Part shown: one piece after another, positions 190-36,063 of the stretch
Layout: each line of letters starts with the position of its first letter
How positions within the stretch are numbered: the first letter of the stretch is position 1
From: Candidatus Altimarinota bacterium
GTDB lineage: Bacteria; Patescibacteriota; Gracilibacteria; BD1-5; UBA2023
Length of the DNA: 41,796 nt
Direction: 5' to 3'
NCBI GenBank assembly: GCA_024709505.1
Contig: JANJWP010000001.1
Coordinates: forward strand, 1 to 41,796
The notes under the pieces: model-generated
The model's database searches: none
What the model was told of the DNA's origin: nothing
The model's input: only the letters and a program-made list of their open reading frames with translations
Program-made: the position numbers and the translations under genes

Positions 190-897
190 TTAGGGGCTTT
201 GCGGTTCTTTCGTTTCGACGTTTCCCGTTCGCAGATCAAGCCATATGTCCCGGCTCGCATCCTTATTCCGGCTTCAAAATGCCTGCTGATATGCCGCGTT
301 GATTTTCAGTCTCACGGCGGTATTCCGCCCATAATCGACGCATCCGGTCAGCGTTTCGCACGAAAGCGGATGGGCTCGGAGATTCGGTCCATCAACCATG
401 AGAACGATGCTTTTTCCTCCGGTCAGAGCATCGTTTCCTCAGAAGTCGGCCGGATTCCCCACGCGAAATACCGAGTTCCCCGATTTGTCGTATCCGGTAA
501 TGGCCGGAAGATAATACGACGAACGTTCTCAAAAGAAGGGGTTTCCCAAACTTCCGTCGGTATCGGTTCCGCAAACGCTTCCTATGGCTCCGGTTTCCGT
601 GAATGACACGATGCTTCCGGTAATGGCGTTTTCGCCGAATTCGACTGCGTATCCCGAACAATTTCCATTCGGATGAGCCCTGCCGCTTATTGCGGCGGTC
701 TTGGCGTGGCGGATGATGGAAGCAACCTTCGTCGCCATTCGGTCACGCTTTTCTTTGTCGGCCGCGGTTTCATAATCGAAGCTGTTGATTCCGACGGCCA
801 AAACGGCGATGAGGGCGATGACGACGATGATTTCGCTCAAAGTAAATCATCGGACGTTCGAAAAGGGCGGGAGGGCGCTCTGGCGAATGATTTGCAA
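190..897 (-). CDS. Type IV pilin-like protein (prepilin)
   Basis: The 235-residue product has a textbook prepilin signal. A short charged leader ends in Arg16-Gly17, followed by FTLSEIIVVIALIAVLAV with Glu at mature position +5. The cleavage-site glycine (complement of 847-849) is a TGA codon, so the gene only makes sense under table 25. Further TGA codons follow within the globular part, and the frame ends at TAA (190-192). The globular domain has several cysteines and no hallmark I recognise, so it could be a major or minor pilin. The start is taken as TTG at 897; no ATG is available in frame. It is transcribed towards the 5S terminator and faces away from the LPXTG protein gene. Confidence 0.85.
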
Positions 898-25979: not shown

Positions 25980-27464
25980 TTAGTTGAAGAACCGGATCTT
26001 GTCCGCGCTCGGGTGGGTGCGGAGCTTTTCGAGGGTCTTGGCTTCGATCTGGCGCACGCGTTCGCGGGTGACGCCGAATTCCTTGCCGACTTCTTCGAGC
26101 GTATGGATTTCGCCTCCGTCGAGACCGAAGCGCATGATGATGATCTTGCGCTCGCGCGGAGTGAGGAAATCGAGCATCTCGTAGAGGTTTTCCTTGAGGA
26201 GCGTGAGATTGGCGGCCTTATCGGGCGTAAGGTATTTGTCGTCTTCGACGAAGTCTCCGAGGGTCGTGTCTTCTTCGCCTCCGACGGGGGAGTCGAGGGA
26301 GAGGATGTCCTGCGAAATGCGCATGATCTGGCGGACCTTGCGGATGTCCATGTCGAGTTCGAGCGCGAGTTCTTCCATGAGCGGTTCGCGCGCGAGTTCC
26401 TGCGTGAGGCGGCGGAAGGTATGGGTGAATCGGTTGATGGTTTCGACCATGTGGACCGGAACGCGGATGGTGCGAGCTTGGTCGGCGATGGCGCGGGTTA
26501 CGCCCTGGCGGATCCACCAAGTGGCATAGGTGGAGAACTTGAAGCCCTTTTCCGGGTCGAATTTATCGACGGCACGGAAAAGTCCGACGTTGCCTTCCTG
26601 GATGAGGTCGAGGAGTCCGAGTCCGCGCCCCATGTATTTCTTCGCAATGGAAACGACGAGGCGGAGATTGGCTTCCGCGAGTTTCCGGCGGGCCGATTGG
26701 TCTCCGCGTTTGATGAGACGCCCAAGGCGGACTTCTTCTTCGGCGTCGATGAGCGCGAAACGTCCGATCTCGTTCAAATACATGCGGATCGAGTCGTCCG
26801 AAATTTCGGAGAGGTCGATTTCGTGGGATTTTTCTTTCTCGTCGTGCTTGAAGAGTTCTTCCTTGTCGAGGGAATCAACGATTTCGACCCCGAGCTTCAT
26901 GAGACGGGTGTAGATGTCGTCGAGCCTGTCGAGGTCGTCTTCGGCATTGGGAAGGGCGGCCATGAGTTCGTCATGGGTGATGCGCCCCTCGACCTTCCCC
27001 TTTTTAAAGAGAAGCTGCATGTTTTCGTCAAGTCCTTCGAGCATCTCCGGTGGAACCGTGACGTCGATGAATTTTTGCAATCCCTTACCGATGCGGCGCT
27101 TGTCTTGGGATCGGTCAACCGGAAGACGGGCAAGTCCTCGTTCCCGCTTCTTTTTTCCACTGCCTTCGCCGTCTTCTCATTCCTCACCCTCTTCTTCGAA
27201 ATCTTCCTCAAAGTCTTCTTCGAAATCTTCCTCAATGTCCGAATCTCCGATGCCGAAGGCTGTCGTGAGTCCGGCTTCGGAGAGGATTTCATCCGGATCT
27301 TCGGTGACGAAATCCTCGTTGAACCCCGCTTTTTTCTTGAGCGGTTTTTCCGATTTCTCCGGAGAAAGCGCTTCGAAAAACGCTTCTTCCGGGGTTTCGA
27401 TGCTGGAAAGATCGACTTCTTCTATCGAAGTGGCGTCCTGCTTTTGATCTTGCTTCTTCGGCAT
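25980..27464 (-). CDS. rpoD: RNA polymerase primary sigma factor
   Basis: The 494-residue protein has all sigma-70 core regions: region 2 ([53 protein letters not shown]), the -10-recognising helix, region 3, and region 4 ([15 protein letters not shown] ... [28 protein letters not shown]). The N-terminal ~130 residues are atypical: a very acidic tract with a repeated EEDF unit at about 78-95, then a Lys/Arg-rich patch. One TGA (complement of 27177) in this tract is Gly; without it the gene would look split. It is the second gene of dnaG-rpoD-yceD, the macromolecular synthesis operon order. Confidence 0.97.
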
Positions 27465-27476
27465 TCTCGGGGAGAG

Positions 27477-29186
27477 TTAGGGGGTTTTGAGCAAGTGTTT
27501 GGGAATCGGCTGGTGCGGAATGCCCAACTTTCGCGCTTTTTCTTGGAGCCGCATCGTGGCTTGGAACGAGGCGAGGGAGTCGTTTTGATCGACGTTTTCC
27601 ATCGTGTCGTAGTATTCGGTCGAGTAGGCCCTCCGTTTGGCTTCTTTAATGAGTTCTAAGAATTTGATTTTGATTGACTCGGGAGTGGATTCGGAATTCT
27701 GGGTTTCAACGGCGATTTCGGCCGCCTTGTGCCGATTGGGGTCGATGCCCGCCTCTTCGGGGTTTTTGGTCGCTACGACGCGCTCCAATACCGAAAAAGA
27801 CGGGATATCCCGGCAATGGGCCGAAGTATACGGAAAATTTTGCGAATACAAATCGTAAAAACCATAGAGCGCGCAGTATGCGGCAAGGATTTCGCCAAGT
27901 TCGAACCCCTCTTTTTTTTCGATCCGCGTCTCGACGGGGCGTTTTTCGCGGATTCCCCGGAGTTCGGCGTACAGGGTTTCAAGCGAAACGTCCATGGCTC
28001 TCGATACTTCCCGAAGCCGCATGTCAACCTCAATTCGATCGGACAATCCTCGGATGAAACGGAGCAAATCGCGAATCATCGAAGTTTTTCCAGGGGCGCC
28101 GGTAAGGTCATATCGCCGTCCGCCCTCGGCGATAAAAAACTCGACGACTGAAAGCGAATGCCTTTGCAGTTCGTTGAAATCGCCGCCGTTCTTCACGAAT
28201 TCATCGGGATCTTTTCCGTTCGGGATCCGAATGATCCGGACTTCGAAGTCTTCGTTGGCGAGCGCTTCGACGCTCGCGAAGGTCGCTTTGGTTCCGGCAT
28301 CGTCGGAATCGAGGCAGAGAAATATCCTGTTCGTAAGGCGCTTGAGATATCCGGCGTGCTCTTTGGTAAGGGCCGTTCCGCTGATTCCTACGGCGTTCGT
28401 CACCCCGGCCTGATGAAGCGAAACGGTATCCATTTGCCCTTCCACGACGATGGCTGAACCGCGTTTTCCGATTTCGCCTTTGGCGAGATGGAGCCCATAG
28501 AGAATCGAACTCTTGTCGAAGATTTTGGACGCGGGGGAGTTGAGGTATTTGGGTTCCCCGGCTCATACGATGCGTCCGGTGAACGCCACGACGTTTCCGG
28601 AATAGTTGGCGATGGGAAAAATGATCCGCCCGTAAAACTTATCCCTCCCCGGACCGACGAATATGCCGGAATCGAGGACGTCCTGTTCGGGGATTCCCCG
28701 GGATTTCAGTTTGGCAAAGAGTTCGCGCGGATTTCCGGAATAGCCGATCTTGAATTTGGCAACCGTCTCGTCGGTCAATCCCCGTGACCGGACGTATTCG
28801 AGTTTTTCCCGGTTTTCGGGAAGGAAAAGTTCGGCGTGGTAGGTTTCGGCCGCGATCTTATAGATTTCGTAGACGTCGCTGCGGCGTTCGGAATCCCGAG
28901 TGAAATCGGTTTTCAATTCGACCCCGGCTTCTTTGGCAAGAATCTGGAGGGCTTCGCGGAATTCGATTTTCTCGATTTCCATGAGGAAATTGAGGGGGCC
29001 GCCACCTTTGTGGCACGAAAAGCAATACGCGAGATTTTTTGCCGGCGACACGATGAACGACGGCGTTTTTTCATTATGGAAAGGGCAGCACGCCTTGAAA
29101 TTCGCTCCGGCTTTTTTCAGCGGAACGTACTTGGAAACGAGCTCAACGATGTTGATTCGGTTCTCTATGTCTTTTGAAATCGACAT
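27477..29186 (-). CDS. dnaG: DNA primase
   Basis: The 569-residue protein has the N-terminal CHC2 zinc-binding motif (CPFHNEKTPSF ... YCFSCHKGGG, near 39-66), the RNA-polymerase core with GRIIFPIANYSGNVVAFTGR, and the TOPRIM motifs (VVEGQMDTVSLHQAG and FLCLDSDDAGTKA). The C-terminal ~120 residues correspond to the helicase-interacting region. One TGA (complement of 28563) is Gly in GRIV-G-EPKYLNSP, exactly where primases have GRxL....PKYLNSP. Start at ATG 29186 (MSISKDIE); TAA stop. Its promoter is TTGCCT (complement of 29234-29239), 16 bp, TATACT (complement of 29212-29217). First gene of the dnaG-rpoD operon. Confidence 0.96.
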
Positions 29187-29211
29187 TCGGCGTTGATCGG
29201 GTTCACGACGA

Positions 29212-29239
29212 AGTATAGCATGCTCGCGATGAAAGGCAA
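29212..29239 (-). promoter_or_regulatory. Promoter of dnaG-rpoD-yceD
   Basis: TTGCCT and TATACT, 16-bp spacer, 25 bp before the dnaG ATG. Confidence 0.6.
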
Positions 29240-29286
29240 GGCGGCAATCCCTGAAAACCAGCCCCGGAAACCCCGTCGTCCGTCCG

Positions 29287-29748
29287 CTATTCCGGCTGGA
29301 TGAATTTTTCCGGTTCCCGGTTCCAGATTTCCAAAAGTTCCGGGAGGCGAATCGGCTTATATTGTCCCGCAATGCTCGCAAGGTCATAAAACCCCACTTC
29401 TTCGTGTTCGAATCCGTGGGTGGCCTTGGAGATGTCAATGTTTTCGAAATCCCCGACGTTTTCTATGGCATACCAAAAATCGTAGGTCGTAAGTCCGTTG
29501 GATCGGACGAATTCGTGCGAATAGACCAAAGGACCGATTTTCGGTTCGACGCCAAGTTCTTCGATTATTTCACGCCGAAGACCTTCCAGCCGCGTTTCTC
29601 CGGGCTCGAGGGTTCCTCCTGGAAGGCAGTAAAATCCGCCGTGCGCAAGTTTGCAAAGGAAGATTTTCGAATCCTTTATGAGCACGCCGCGGACCTTGGC
29701 GGTAATGAAAAGTTCTGAACTCTGAAAAACGGAGAAATCGCTCGACAT
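29287..29748 (-). CDS. Nudix hydrolase
   Basis: The 153-residue protein contains the Nudix box G-x5-E-x7-REUxEExGU as GGTLEPGETRLEGLRREIIEELGV (about 45-68), with a VRGVLIKDSKIFLCKL strand before it. These Mg2+-dependent enzymes hydrolyse nucleoside diphosphate derivatives; the substrate is not predictable from sequence. It has no TGA codon, ends in TAG, and reads away from the giant pilin gene across an AT-rich intergenic region. Confidence 0.88.
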   Translation of the reverse strand: MSSDFSVFQSSELFITAKVRGVLIKDSKIFLCKLAHGGFYCLPGGTLEPGETRLEGLRREIIEELGVEPKIGPLVYSHEFVRSNGLTTYDFWYAIENVGDFENIDISKATHGFEHEEVGFYDLASIAGQYKPIRLPELLEIWNREPEKFIQPE

Positions 29749-29901: not shown

Positions 29902-32900
29902 ATGAATCCGAAGAATTCCCCCCTCGCGCTCTCCGATTCCGTCTCGCGGCGCGTTTCCCGCGCGCTCCGGAAGGCGGCTTCCGCCAAGCTTTCGGGTTTC
30001 ACGTTGGCCGAACTCATCGTTGTCATCGCGGTGCTGGCGATCCTTTCCGCGGTAGCGCTCGTGGCGCTCTCTGGGTACCGGCAGGACGCCCGCGACGCCG
30101 CGGTCAAGGCCAATGTCCGTTCGGTGTACTCCGCCATCGCGGCCGAGTCCGCGGCGAGGCAGGAATCGGCGCGCTGCTTCGTTGTCCACGATTCGGAATA
30201 CGCCCTCTCTGGAGGGGTCGTCGTATTCGATGGGAACCTCGCCGACTCCCTCTCCGGAGGACCCTGCGGCACCCCCGGGACGAACTACTCCGCCGGGAAT
30301 CCCGACTACGGAGCCCTCCGCCTCGACCCAGAGAAGTTCCGCCTCTCGCTCCTTTCCCCGGGGGCGGACGCGCGCTCCGCCGGTCGGACGACCTTCCGTT
30401 CCTCCGCCCGCCCCGCCGCAGGTTCCTTCCCATCCTTCCGTCTCCCGTTCCTGCCGGCCTCCGCCGCCGGAACCGGAACCGCCGACCCCTCGCTCCTGCT
30501 CGTGGGGGCCGCCGACCTCTCCGATCTCTCCTGACCGAAGCCCCGCCTCCGGACCTTCGCCCAGGTGGCGGCGGTCCTCTCTTCCGATACCGCCTACGTC
30601 GCGGGCGATTTCCCGACCGGCGGAGCGGAGGACGGTTCGGTCGCCGGCCTTATCAGGGACGCGGCCTTTGCTTCTTCCTCGACCGGCGCCCTCGTGGACG
30701 GCGCCCCGGTGGGGGAGCCTGCCCCGTGCCCGGAATCCGAAGTTTCGGGGTATTCCGTCCCGTACCTCGCGAACGGGGAGTCCGCCGCGGTTTCCCAGGA
30801 CCTCGCGGACGGGGGCGGACAGAAGAATGGCCGCGCCTTCGCGACGGCCTCCTGCTCGTACGGGACCGTCCGGATCAAGGACGAAACCGCTTCCTGCGAC
30901 CCGGATTACGTCCCCGCTCTCCCGGCGCCTTCCTGCGTCCGCGACTCCTGTTCCGGGGCGCTTCCCGAGAACGCTCTCGCGACCGGGACCCCGGGTACGG
31001 CCGCCTGGTCGTACTCGGAAACCCCCGGCACCTGTTCGTTCGCCTGCGATTCCGCGAACGGCTACCTCTGGAATTCCGGGACGCTCTCCTGCGAGAAGTC
31101 CTGTTCCACTGGAAATCTCGCCTCCTTCTCCGGACTGGATTATGTCCTCCCCGTCGCGCTGACCGTTCCGAACGGCGGTTCCGCCTCATCGTCCGGGACG
31201 CACGCTTTCGGTTCCCATCCCGCCTCCGGGACGCTCGTCGCGGACTTCGCCTTCTCGTGCTCGCACGGAACCCTCGGGACCGTTTCGTCCGCCGGTTCCG
31301 GATCCTGCGCGTCCGCCCCGTCGCACGCATTCAATTCCGATTTCTCCGCTCCCGCGTGCCTCCCCGTCGCGTACCAAGTCTCCGGTTCGTTCGGGGCCGG
31401 GGCTTCCGGGGCGCAAATCTCGGGCTGCGGGGGAAAAACCGCGACCGCCGGTTCCTCCGGGAACTTCTCGTTCTCCGGAGTCCTCCATGGAACCGACTGT
31501 TCCGACGTCTCCGTCTCGAAGCCCGAGCATTCGTGCTCGGTCTCGAAGAACGGCCCGTCCTCCCTCGTCTCCAATATCTCCGACATCGCCGGATCGTGCT
31601 CGTTCAACGTCGCGGGAATCGCGGGAAGCCTGCGGTTCAACGGGGCGAACGGGTATTTGAACAGGACGCCTTCGGCAGCGGGAAATCAGAAAAAATGGAC
31701 GTGGAGTGGATGGGTGAAGTCTTCTCGAAACGGCTCCACCCAGCACGTCCTTACTTCGGGAACTTCGGGTACCAACTATGCTTTGGTTTCTTTCTCGGCG
31801 AATGGTTTCCTTGATGCGACTGATACTCTGAAAATTTACTCGACCATATCGAATTCGACCCAATCAGCCCTGATTTCCTCGGCTTTTTATCGGGATCCGT
31901 CGGCATGGTATCATCTCCTCGTTTCCGTAGATACGGCCGATTCCACGCCGTCCAATAGGGTCAAGGCGTTCATAAATGGACGGCAAGTTCCGTTTTCGTG
32001 AACTTTTCCTCCGCAAAATTCCGATTTCGCATTCATTAATTCCACCACTCCACAGAACATCGGTACAATTCTCAACGGGACGTACGGATATTTCTCGGGC
32101 TATTTTGCCAACGTTCATTTCGTTGACGGACAAGCCCTTCCCGCGACCGAATTTGGAGAGACCGACGGCACCACTGGTTCGTGGAAACCGAAAAACTATT
32201 CCGGAACCTACGGTACCAACGGCTTCAGGCTCGATTTTTCGGACGTTTCCGGCCTCACTTCGGGTTCCAATGCCGGAATCGGGAAGGATTCCTCCGGGAA
32301 TTCCAATTACTGGAACACGAACAACGTCGTCCTCGCCGATCGGGTCATCGACCATCCGACCAACAACTTCGCGACGTTGAATCCGCTCGATAACGTGGCC
32401 GTCAACGCCGGAGCGGGAGTCGGAAGCTTCGTTTTAACCGCGGGAAATTTGCGCTCGAGCGAATCGAATTCGACCAATACGGTCGGAACGGTCAGATCGT
32501 CCATCTCTCCGAATTCGGGAAAATGGTATTGGGAGGTTTCGGTCGTAAGCAAATGAGGGAATTACGGTACGATTGGAATTAAACGAGACGGAACCGCCCC
32601 CTCTTTATTTGGGGGAGATAATGGCGACTACGCTTACCGAACGGATGGAAATAAGCGCAACGGATCTACCAGCGTCGCTTACGGTTCTTCTTTGGCGACG
32701 AACGACGTCGTTGGCGTCGCTCTCGATGCCAACGCTGGAACTTTGGAGTTTTATCGTCAGGCTTGAGGAACGGGACCTTTCGTTTCCCAGTGAGTGGCTT
32801 TTTCGGGATTGGGCGGAGCCTCGTATTCTCCGGCTCTTGGGGACGAACAGAATGCCAGCGCAAACGTTTTTGAATTCAACTTCGGCCAATGAGGCCAATC

Positions 32901-34035
32901 GGGACTCCAATACTGCGAGAACGCCGGGGGATACTTTAAGTCTTGTCCTCCGTCCGGTTTCAAAGCCCTTTCCACGAAAAACCTGACTCCGTCGATAACG
33001 AATCCGAAACAGCACTTCGACGTGCTGACGTACTTTGGAACGAGCGCGAACAATACCGTTTCCTGACTCGCGTTTCAACCGGACTTGCTTTGGTTTAAAA
33101 ATCGCGATGCCGCAGCCGGAAATGCGTGGATGGACTCGGTTCGATGATGGAACAAGGCACTCTATTCTTATTCCGCAACTTCGGAAAGTTCAGAAGCTTC
33201 ACCCGTAACGTTCCCCTCCGTCGGAAGCTTCACCATTCCTTCTTCTTACGGATGATCATGGAACGACAGCGGAAACAAATACGTCACTTGGGCGTGGAAG
33301 GGCGGCGGAGCGGCCTTATCCAATACGGCCGGAACGATTGCGAGCCAAGTGAGCGCCAATCCTGCCGCGGGATTCTCCATCATTTCCGCCACCACGCCCG
33401 CCTCGGCAGGAGCCGTTACCATTGGCCACGGACTGGGAACCGCCCCCTCGATGATCGTGTTTAAAAACCGTTCCCAATCGGCTGACTGGCTCGTATGGCA
33501 CAAGAATTTGAACGGCGGAATTCCCGGTTCGAACTCCTACTTGAAATTGAATTCCATTGCCGCCCAAGCCCAATTGTCGGGCATGTGGGGAACCGCGGCG
33601 CCCAATCCCACGACCTTTTGAGTGACCGTGGGCACGACCGTAGCGGGCAGTAACAACCTCATTTCGTACGCGTTCGCCGAAGTTCCCGGATTTTCCAAAT
33701 TCGGAAGTTACGTCGGAAACGGCAGTACGGACGGACCGTTCGTGCATACCGGATTCCGACCAAGGTGGATCATGGCAAAACGGATAGATTCCGGTACGGA
33801 CGGATGGGTGGTGATCGATACGGTCCGAAATCCGAACAACGTTGCCGACAAAGTGATATCGGCCGACTTATCCAATGCCGAATGAACCGATACGTATTTC
33901 GACATCCTCTCCAACGGATTCAAGGGAAGGCGGACCGGGGCTTCGACCAACGCTTCCGGTGGAACCTACGTCTACGCCGCCTTCGCCGAAGCGCCGTTCG
34001 GATGAGCGGGAATCGCTCCGGCCACGGCCAGATAG
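29902..34035 (+). CDS. Giant type IV pilin-like protein fused to phage tail-fibre-type domains
   Basis: Read through 12 TGA codons, this is one 1,377-residue protein ending in TAG. It starts with a prepilin signal: Gly32 then FTLAELIVVIAVLAILSAV with Glu at +5. Up to about 575 it is Ser/Gly/Cys-rich, with CSF/C...NGYLWNSGTLSC-type repeats. A laminin-G/concanavalin-like domain follows (about 576-785: SLRFNGANGYLNRTP, WTWSGWVK, FYRDPSAWYHLLVSVD, NRVKAFINGRQV). Then a SPRY-like domain (about 845-1000: GKWYWEVSVVSK ... VFEFNFGQ, SGFKALSTKNL). Last is a repeat-containing module (about 1055-1370: IGHGLGTAPSMIVFKNR, FSKFGSYVGNGSTDGPFVHTGFRPRWIMAKR, GGTYVYAAFAEAPFG). This order is that of marine phage tail fibres. 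It is probably a pilus-borne adhesin for a surface receptor. Confidence 0.85.
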
Positions 34036-34046
34036 TCTGTCTTGCG

Positions 34047-34081
34047 AAAGAAAACCCGGGGACATCCCGGGTTTTCTTTAT
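34047..34081. terminator. Shared terminator of the giant pilin gene and uvrC
   Basis: A perfect 14-bp stem AAAGAAAACCCGGG / CCCGGGTTTTCTTT with loop GACAT (34061-34065) and T-rich ends on both strands. Confidence 0.9.
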
Positions 34082-36063
34082 AAAAGCGCATGGCTTTCCA
34101 AGATTTCGATTTGGGTTTTATTCAAGATCTTTTGAAGCTCACTTCGGTCGAGTTCGCGGATGCCTTCGATCGAACCGGCGGCCGAGAGGAGCTTTTTGCG
34201 CGTTACCGGTCAGAATCAGGGAAGTTCTTCGAGCACGTTTTTCCGCATTTCCTTGGACCGGGTTTTTCGGTTGAAGGTAATGGCGAATCGGTGCGCCTCG
34301 TCGCGAAGGCTTACGATTGCCGCGAGTTCGGCGCTTCCTTTGGGAAATTTTACGCTTCCTTCGCGCGATTCGGTGAAGATTTCTTCTTCGCGCTTGGCAA
34401 GCGAGGCGAGAAAGGGAAGTCGGACGGACGGGCGAGCCGACGCTTCTTTCTCGGTTGGTCCTCGGGCGGATTCGGCGGATTCGATTCCGGATGTTCAATC
34501 CCGCCCTGCGGAGACCTTCGAACGAAGGTCGGCTCGCCCGTCCGTCCACTCCGCTACGGCCCGTTCGATGCCTTCGCGTGCCGAAGACAATTGTCCTTTC
34601 CCTCCGTCGATAAGGAACATCGTCGGAAAATTTCCGCTTTCCAATCCTTCGAGTGTCCGACGGTACAAAACCTCCCGCATACTTGCGAAATCGTCGATTT
34701 TTCCTTCCGTAAGCGAGCGGATTTTATATTTTCGGTATTTTGCCGGATTAGCCTTCCCGTTCGTCGTCACGACCCGTGAGGCTACCGTGAAATGTCCATC
34801 GGTGTGCGAAATGTCGTAGCATTCGAATTCGATTTCGCCCTTTTGTGGCGCTTCGAATCCGAGATTTCCCAAAATTGAGGCCATAACCGGACGCCCGAAT
34901 GCCTTTTTCGCGATCTTTTCCATTCCGTCGCGGAGGGCGTATCCCGCCACGTTGGCACGAAGGAATCCGAGCAGCTCGGCTTTCGGTCCTATCTTGGGAA
35001 ATTCTAATCGAACGCCCTTTTGCCGGAGGAATTCCAAAAACGCCGGGTCGTCGATTTCGCGTTCCAAGAAAAGAACGTCGGGCAAATCCGCGTCTTCGCG
35101 GGCGTAAATGTCGGCAAGAAATTCCGCCGAAATTTCGTCCGTTCCTTCTTCGAGGGGATTTTCCGCCGAATGGCGGGAAAGCGAACGGAGTTCGGTGTCC
35201 CGTATTCGGCAAAATCCCGCGAACGTCCTTCCGTTTTTTTCGAGCGCCACGAACGCATCCGCTTTTTCTTGGATGGAATTCCGTGCGATTTGCCGTTCCG
35301 AAAGCATTCTCACCGAAACGAGCCGCTCCTTGATTTTCTGCGCTTCTTCGAATTCGAGGTTTCGAGCCCGTTCCTTCATTTCCGATTCGAGGGATTCGAT
35401 GACTTCGGAACGTTCTCACGAAAGGAACCGTTCGAGTTTCGCCACGTTTTCGGCGTGTGCGTCGAGGCATTCTTCCTTCAAGAGGCAAGGTGCCGGGCAG
35501 ATGCCGATGTAGTAGTCCATGCACGGAGGAGTGCGTCCGGCTTTCGAAACGATTCTCACCCCGGCACCCCGGACGTTTTCGAATTCCATCCGACAAGAGC
35601 GAACCCGGAAAAGCCGACGGACGTGCTCGAGGCAGGCGGAAATGCCGGAACCCGACGGATACGGTCAAAAATACCGACCCTCCTTGCCTCGGACCCTCGT
35701 TTTTTCCACGGCCGAAACCGGACCCGGAGATATCCGAACGTAGGCCAAATCCTTGTCGTCCTTCATCAGCACGTTGTACTTCGGCCGGATTTCCTTGATG
35801 AGGTTCGTTTCGAGCACGAGGGCTTCGGTTTCGGTCCGGGTTTCGACGATTTCTATGTCGGCGATGCGCTCGACCATTTGCCGTTTGGCAGGTCCGAGCG
35901 ATGATTTTCCACTGAAATACGAACCGACCCGGCTCTTGAGGTTCACCGATTTCCCAACGTAAATGACCTTCCCCGAAGCGTCTTTCATTTGGTATATCCC
36001 AGGGGATTGCGGAAGGTTCGCGAGGAGGTCTTTGGGTCGGGAGCGTTTTGGAGCGTTCGGCAT
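34078..36063 (-). CDS. uvrC: UvrC, excinuclease ABC subunit C
   Basis: The 661-residue protein has the GIY-YIG nuclease domain at the N-terminus (SPGIYQMKDASGKVIYVGKSVNLKSRVGSYF), the UvrB-binding motif (ARNLEFEEAQKIKERL), the second nuclease domain with FLIDGGKGQLSSA, and a C-terminal helix-hairpin-helix ELPGFGPVTRKKLLSAAGSIEGIREL. UvrC makes both incisions in nucleotide excision repair. TGA codons (complement of 35665, about 35416, 34495 and two near 34215) are Gly, including both Gly of the LPGFG turn. It is longer than usual (~600): about 45 extra residues (about 510-560) after GGKGQLSSA are flanked by an inverted repeat. The -10 box lies 8 bp before the ATG. Confidence 0.95.
34422..34547. 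repeat. 20-bp perfect inverted repeat inside uvrC
   Basis: Arms 34422-34441 and 34528-34547 are exact inverse copies (GGACGGACGGGCGAGCCGAC and its complement) with an 86-bp spacer. They bracket the extra, family-atypical segment of UvrC. Confidence 0.85.

Follow-up and report, generated by a model that had tools for sequence, protein, structure and literature searches.

The window, by which we mean the entire stretch of 41,796 nucleotides that was analysed, belongs to a Gracilibacterium-type genome of 1.17 Mb (98% complete) and contains a large gene in which a prepilin and a stalk are joined to a phage-type module (Table 1). Read with genetic code 25, this gene forms a single frame of 1377 codons without TAA or TAG but with 12 TGA codons, in line with the continuous TGA-as-glycine frame claimed in the first-pass annotation. 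By chance, ~26 TAA or TAG codons would be expected in a frame of this length (P(none) = 5e-12). The reading of TGA as glycine is supported by the alignment with relatives, because the TGA codons at residues 964 and 1082 fall in columns that are occupied by glycine in 56/59 and 58/59 sequences, respectively. The two halves of the gene differ in composition, with ~68% GC and TGA at 1/65 glycine codons in the N-terminal half (29902-31610) and ~53% GC and TGA at 11/102 in the C-terminal half (31611-34035; p = 0.03), the window average being about 5%. Another short prepilin gene lies at the window edge (190-897, minus strand; N_methyl, 27.2 bits).

The chromosomal setting is that of a cellular gene. 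Its neighbours dnaG, rpoD and uvrC are all encoded on the opposite strand, and its location between them places the gene outside any prophage; an origin as a prophage or moron gene was rejected on account of these flanks and the absence of the pilin and stalk parts from phages and IMG/VR. Unlike members of the phage family proper, the gene is not encoded among the virion genes of a phage genome, and its flanks thus identify it as a cellular derivative rather than a phage tail gene.

Table 1. Features of the prepilin-phage module gene and its surroundings (window coordinates)
Feature	Position	Strand	Basis or remark
rpoD, beyond dnaG	25980-27464	-	
dnaG, upstream neighbour	27477..29438	-	
Whole gene: prepilin-stalk-phage module protein, 1377 aa, TGA=Gly	29902..34035	+	
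Prepilin leader, long (aa 1-32)	29902..29997	+	Paralogue translations; cleavage at G32/F33 expected (inferred)
Mature N-terminal pilin helix FTLAELIVVI..., Glu5 present (aa 33-85)	29998..30156	+	N_methyl, pilin PHROG and geopilin matches
Pilin/carrier region shared with paralogues (aa 86-275)	30157..30726	+	43-58% identity to most of about 12 paralogues in the same genome
Cys-rich stalk modules (aa 276-569), 16/18 Cys of the N-terminal half	30727..31608	+	No phage match
Phage-type module, collinear with complete phage gene (aa 571-1377)	31612..34032	+	PHROG, alignment, model
LamG-like jelly-roll domain (aa 576-780; limits approximate)	31627..32241	+	PHROG 27411; Laminin_G_3 in homologues; beta-sandwich in model
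SPRY domain (aa 874-995)	32521..32886	+	Domain profile, 2.6e-11; Foldseek
DUF7483 domain (aa 1035-1365)	33004..33996	+	Domain profile, 3e-103
Probable terminator (GC-rich hairpin, then T) separating convergent genes	34048..34078	+	By eye; not listed by terminator scan
uvrC, downstream neighbour	34078..35988	-	

Domain architecture of the fusion protein

The N-terminal part of the protein has the class III signal that defines type IV pilins, with G or A in front of FTLxE, a glutamate at position 5 and a hydrophobic helix. The N_methyl domain was detected at residues 31-53 with 21.5 bits (cut-off 21.2), and the helix matched pilin PHROG 3433 (5.6e-6), geopilin (1.2e-6) and PilE1. The leader contains a stretch, SDSVSRRVSRALRKAASxKLSG, that is common to four paralogues of the same genome (L007, L008, L009, L010), and residues 86-569 are likewise common to paralogues of this genome. 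Eighteen cysteines are found in the first 570 residues and two in the remainder. A structure model of the N-terminal half contained a helix of ~51 residues, while its confidence beyond the helix (pLDDT 36) was too low to assign a globular pilin fold. The pilin half had no match among the phages searched, and IMG/VR yielded two weak matches to the pilin helix and nothing more.

Phage homology sets in at residue ~571-577. PHROG 27411 matched residues 582-1029 (1.5e-67), PHROG 19943, a virion structural protein, residues 758-1367 (6.7e-169), and PHROG 24898, a tail fiber family, residues 1032-1374 (2.2e-64). Pfam did not detect the LamG-like part in the protein itself, but Laminin_G_3 was found in 15/60 collinear homologues of the module. 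AlphaFold predicted a confident fold for residues 571-1377 (pLDDT 88.8, pTM 0.90), whose SPRY part matched the SPRY domains of RanBP10 and Ash2L in a Foldseek search of the PDB (8e-10). In BFVD, the best matches span the whole module, the named ones including DUF7483 and lectin phage proteins. With a well-defined non-pilin functional domain after its pilin module, the protein also has the domain layout of a modular pilin.

The first-pass annotation had proposed that a prepilin signal is joined to phage LamG, SPRY and terminal fibre-like modules in phage order. This proposal is supported by the profile matches, end-to-end alignment with phage genes, the confident fold of the head and independent copies of the fusion (see below). 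The range it had given for the phage-like part, residues 576-1377, agrees with the observed onset of homology, and the domain searches that could have refuted it by revealing no phage similarity instead returned matches as strong as 6.7e-169. The structure prediction suggested as a check likewise gave a confidently folded head.

Proposed pilus assembly and function of the head

The genome encodes T2SSE ATPases, PilC and the N-domain of PilD (1.6e-25), in addition to 28 prepilin signals, so that the assembly machinery required of a type IV pilin (PilB/T ATPase, PilC and PilD in the same genome) is present; the catalytic domain of PilD (Peptidase_A24, PF01478) was not detected in this genome by the model search. 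Taking these observations together, we consider it probable, although far from settled, that the product of the gene is a modular type IV pilin with a captured, complete phage tail-fibre-type head, that the protein is assembled into a pilus, probably at its tip, and that the head binds a partner cell. In the mechanism envisaged, the prepilin signal, pilin helix and Cys-rich stalk of the bacterium would carry the captured LamG-SPRY-DUF7483 head, PilD would cleave the leader and the subunit would then be built into a type IV pilus, with a tip position being proposed because the head is bulky. There, the head would bind a surface ligand, either glycan or protein, on another cell, and the pilus could thereby recognise and tether a host or prey. 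Pilus assembly, tip location, receptor binding, the ligand and the partner cell are all inferred, as no binding, localisation or expression data are available. By analogy with PilB and PilC of S. sanguinis and PilX2 of Saccharibacteria, tip display and binding of a partner cell by the head are likely, but they have not been demonstrated here.

The main rival explanation holds that the prepilin segment merely serves as a membrane anchor, making the protein a single surface adhesin that is not polymerised into a pilus. Such an arrangement would be consistent with the size of the mature protein, which, at ~1340 aa, is unusually large among pilins, with the existence of ~12 paralogues sharing its stalk or leader, many for pilus tips, and with the fact that the gene does not adjoin pilus assembly genes. 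However, the protein retains a full N_methyl motif with Glu5 and the PilD cleavage site, the assembly ATPases, PilC and PilD are present, and modular pilins elsewhere are assembled and tip-located (PMC8179133, PMC9934059). We therefore regard a mere anchoring role as rather unlikely, without being able to set it aside.

Phage relatives and the origin of the head

A tblastn search returned 74 phage records matching the module, headed by gp16 of Methylophilales phage MEP301, a protein of 788 aa whose alignment covers 98% of the module at 38% identity, and followed by phages of Roseobacter, Pelagibacter, Synechococcus and Prochlorococcus. The alignment of residues 571-1377 with phage genes is collinear almost to the last residues, and the protein thus has what characterises the phage family, all three domains in order and collinearity from end to end. 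The phage LamG-SPRY-DUF7483 proteins (PHROG 19943/27411/24898; MEP301 gp16, CRP-811, SS120-1 and pelagiphages) have the same domains, order and length as the head, with an end-to-end identity of 31-38% (tblastn) or 35-41% (alignment). They differ in that only ~30 residues without a signal precede their LamG-like domain, whereas in the window gene, which is chromosomal and uses a different genetic code, this domain is preceded by a pilin and a stalk. The corresponding viral ORFs, referred to as type I, are typically ~800 aa long, again with ~30 aa upstream of the module, and in some pelagiphages the gene is split in two, a LamG-SPRY gene and a DUF7483 gene. The phage gene follows tail and fibre genes and precedes holin/peptidase; its role in receptor binding rests on annotation and gene position only. 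A prepilin motif was absent from all 80 viral loci kept and from all GTDB loci outside the Gracilibacteria. The nearest viral copies are ~43% identical, and no close donor was identified. A phage donor using code 25 was considered and rejected, the viral type I ORFs not needing TGA=Gly.

Similar fusions, sought as the first-pass annotation had recommended, exist in other Gracilibacteria. A second phage-headed copy in the same genome (contig C4; 48% identical over residues 385-1377) is truncated within the stalk where the contig ends, a genome of the same genus carries stalk and module with the same stalk-head junction, and in three other genera (G018, on a 535-kb contig, G008 and G049) a single frame runs without interruption through pilin and DUF7483. 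Wherever the start of a DUF7483 gene is intact in families f1 and f2, the product is a prepilin (5/5). Not counted among the pilin fusions were Sec-type DUF7483 proteins (G522, G076 and others) and a protein whose N terminus is cut by a contig end (G393).

The fusions do not all have the same head. Residues 645-1264 of the G018 pilin correspond to residues 27-653 of a 654-aa viral protein with two tandem DUF7483 domains (44% identity), and residues 411-1030 of the G008 pilin to residues 16-641 of a 642-aa protein of the same kind (49% identity). Judged from these alignments, their head is a different complete phage gene. The viral tandem family has ~30 residues in front of its domains, and the prepilin motif occurred in 0/69 complete ORFs. 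This common family (L271-L350; typically 630-690 aa), which appears to be of virion fibre type, is without a description. In the careful tree, whose bootstrap is not fully settled, the window-type copies group into a single clade (100/98) that is nested within the viral type I set (97/93), and domain 2 of the G018 and G008 heads falls inside viral domain 2 via three starred forks. A single origin of both kinds of pilin was rejected (p = 5e-6), and pilins thus gained phage genes at least twice, independently and in related genera. The single, divergent DUF7483 head of G049 may represent a third capture. This genome, with ~25% GC and very heavy TGA use, contains three pilin/DUF7483 paralogues (L033, L034, L035; one cut by a contig end), whose heads form long branches.

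The direction of transfer is inferred, with phage to bacterium favoured but not proven. AU tests did not reject monophyly of the viral copies with the pilin copies outside (p = 0.15 for type I and 0.26 for type II), so the direction rests on bootstrap support and numbers. This result leaves some room for the opposite scenario, in which phages acquired LamG-SPRY-DUF7483 from bacteria, where it had long been a cellular adhesive module, and Gracilibacteria retain it as an heirloom. The same holds for distant repeats resembling DUF7483 that occur in several other CPR families, in proteins that look Sec-exported (L201-L205 in G076, G229, G269, G153 and G337; L260-L263 in G522). However, the module is far commoner in viruses, with at least 592 loci in IMG/VR vs 42 in ~85,000 GTDB genomes, DUF7483 is sporadic in the host group (7/353 genomes of the class, 8/380 of the phylum), and the pilin copies are nested in two distinct viral subfamilies and align with viral genes over their full length, rendering a cellular ancestry improbable.

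The module also occurs behind other N termini. In Kaiserbacteria, Paceibacterota, a proteobacterium and others (L160, L163, L170, L189, L194), it follows apparent Sec-type signals or N-terminal transmembrane segments, in some cases with additional C-terminal parts. In the Oligoflexia genome BroJett040, the N termini of three DUF7483-module proteins (L162, L168, L177) read as Tat signals (SRRDF), which would represent bacterial export of the phage module in another, possibly predatory, group.

Head repertoire, known modular pilins and implications

About 12 further pilins of the same genome share the stalk or leader but have other heads (the count is not genome-wide). This family of large pilins with varied heads (L003-L007, L010, L011, L014 and L015 of genome G000) includes three paralogues with RCC1 propellers (L005, L011, L014), one whose head starts with a fibrinogen-C-like part scoring below cut-off (L004) and one with List_Bact (Listeria-Bacteroides) repeats and an N terminus cut by a contig end (L015); some heads remain unidentified. 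By eye, the heads of L007 and L010 resemble FGE/C-type lectins. Given that paralogues with the same stalk bear non-phage heads, and that no defence context was found beside dnaG, rpoD and uvrC, we see very little reason to assume that the head acts on phages rather than cells, as a decoy or through receptor competition or exclusion, even though it copies a phage module that probably, by inference, binds the same surfaces.

Some contigs of this genome end in shared carrier DNA. The ends of C3 and C4 have 276 nt of carrier in common (99.6%) and those of C13 and C24 218 nt (99.5%), after which they diverge, so that near-identical carrier DNA lies beside different neighbours. Breaks inside shared pilin/stalk DNA are the pattern expected of carrier modules common to several genes. 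Although contigs do end within pilin repeats, an assembly or binning chimera, raised by the first-pass annotation as a refutation to be sought in reads, is in practice already ruled out by the independent copies that stood in for reads: the N-terminal half has no other locus above 80% DNA identity in this genome, the stalk-head junction recurs in the second and same-genus copies, and the fusions of G018, G008 and G049 are intact.

Between the window gene and L002, islands of high synonymous identity lie near domain borders (residues 545-604, 1002-1061 and 1102-1166). At the SPRY/DUF7483 hinge (1002-1041), the two phage-headed copies of this genome have 30/39 identical codons, vs 9/30 in the well-conserved segment 740-779 (Fisher p = 2e-4, the segments having been picked after seeing the scan). 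From the codon comparison alone, these islands suggest recombination or gene conversion at domain borders. It is tempting to speculate, although we hold this only tentatively, that Gracilibacteria possess a cassette system in which one shared pilin-stalk carrier receives new heads time and again, among them whole phage tail genes acquired on at least two occasions, and in which recombination at domain borders swaps the heads. Diversification of the heads by a diversity-generating retroelement was considered and rejected, as the sole reverse transcriptase found (G000:C32) is retron-like and not shown to be of DGR type. This gene (L264:1286-2371, minus strand), in a CPR genome, has NAxxH, YADD and VTG motifs by eye.

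Modular type IV pilins have been described in S. sanguinis, whose PilB and PilC carry a vWA and a ConA-like lectin module, respectively (PMC8179133, PMC9934059). Like the window protein, they carry an adhesive domain grafted onto an N-terminal pilin module as a bulky, tip-suited head, and this kind of pilin includes LamG/ConA-type folds and occurs in many architectures, Patescibacteria among them. The window protein differs in that its three-domain head corresponds to a whole phage tail gene and that a Cys-rich stalk lies in between; SPRY or DUF7483 heads are not mentioned in the available parts of either paper. Patescibacterial pilins with extra C-terminal domains are also known from Saccharibacteria, where the minor pilin PilX2 has a beta-propeller head and is required for normal host binding, while PilX1 has a jelly roll (PMC12206443); no phage origin is reported in the portion of that work at hand, and the RCC1-headed paralogues described above are a nearer parallel to PilX2 than the window protein. 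For the code-25 Gracilibacterium BD02T64, 15 large GspG-like proteins with an average of 528 aa have been reported, without heads or phage relationships being identified in the accessible text (PMC6851277).

The initial impression that no system of this layout had been described therefore holds only in part, since pilins onto which adhesive or lectin domains have been grafted are an established kind (PMC8179133, PMC9934059), whereas a complete phage tail gene as a head, acquired at least twice, appears to be new. In the literature searched, which covered few subscription journals, we found no pilin with such a head, nor anything on DUF7483 or on a pilin with a tail fibre in CPR bacteria.

Little is known of the means by which Patescibacteria/CPR bacteria locate and attach to their hosts, and the window protein is a candidate recognition protein. 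Phages whose hosts have been identified (Pelagibacter, Roseobacter, Methylophilales and Synechococcus) carry relatives of its head, and these relatives provide testable ideas on the class of ligand. If the proposed cassette system exists, host or prey range would change as phage host range does. More generally, our findings point to phages as a source from which receptor-type modules pass to the attachment organelles of cells, on two or more occasions in a single bacterial group, and suggest that this tiny, parasite-like bacterium and its relatives have turned phage parts to use in seizing other cells.
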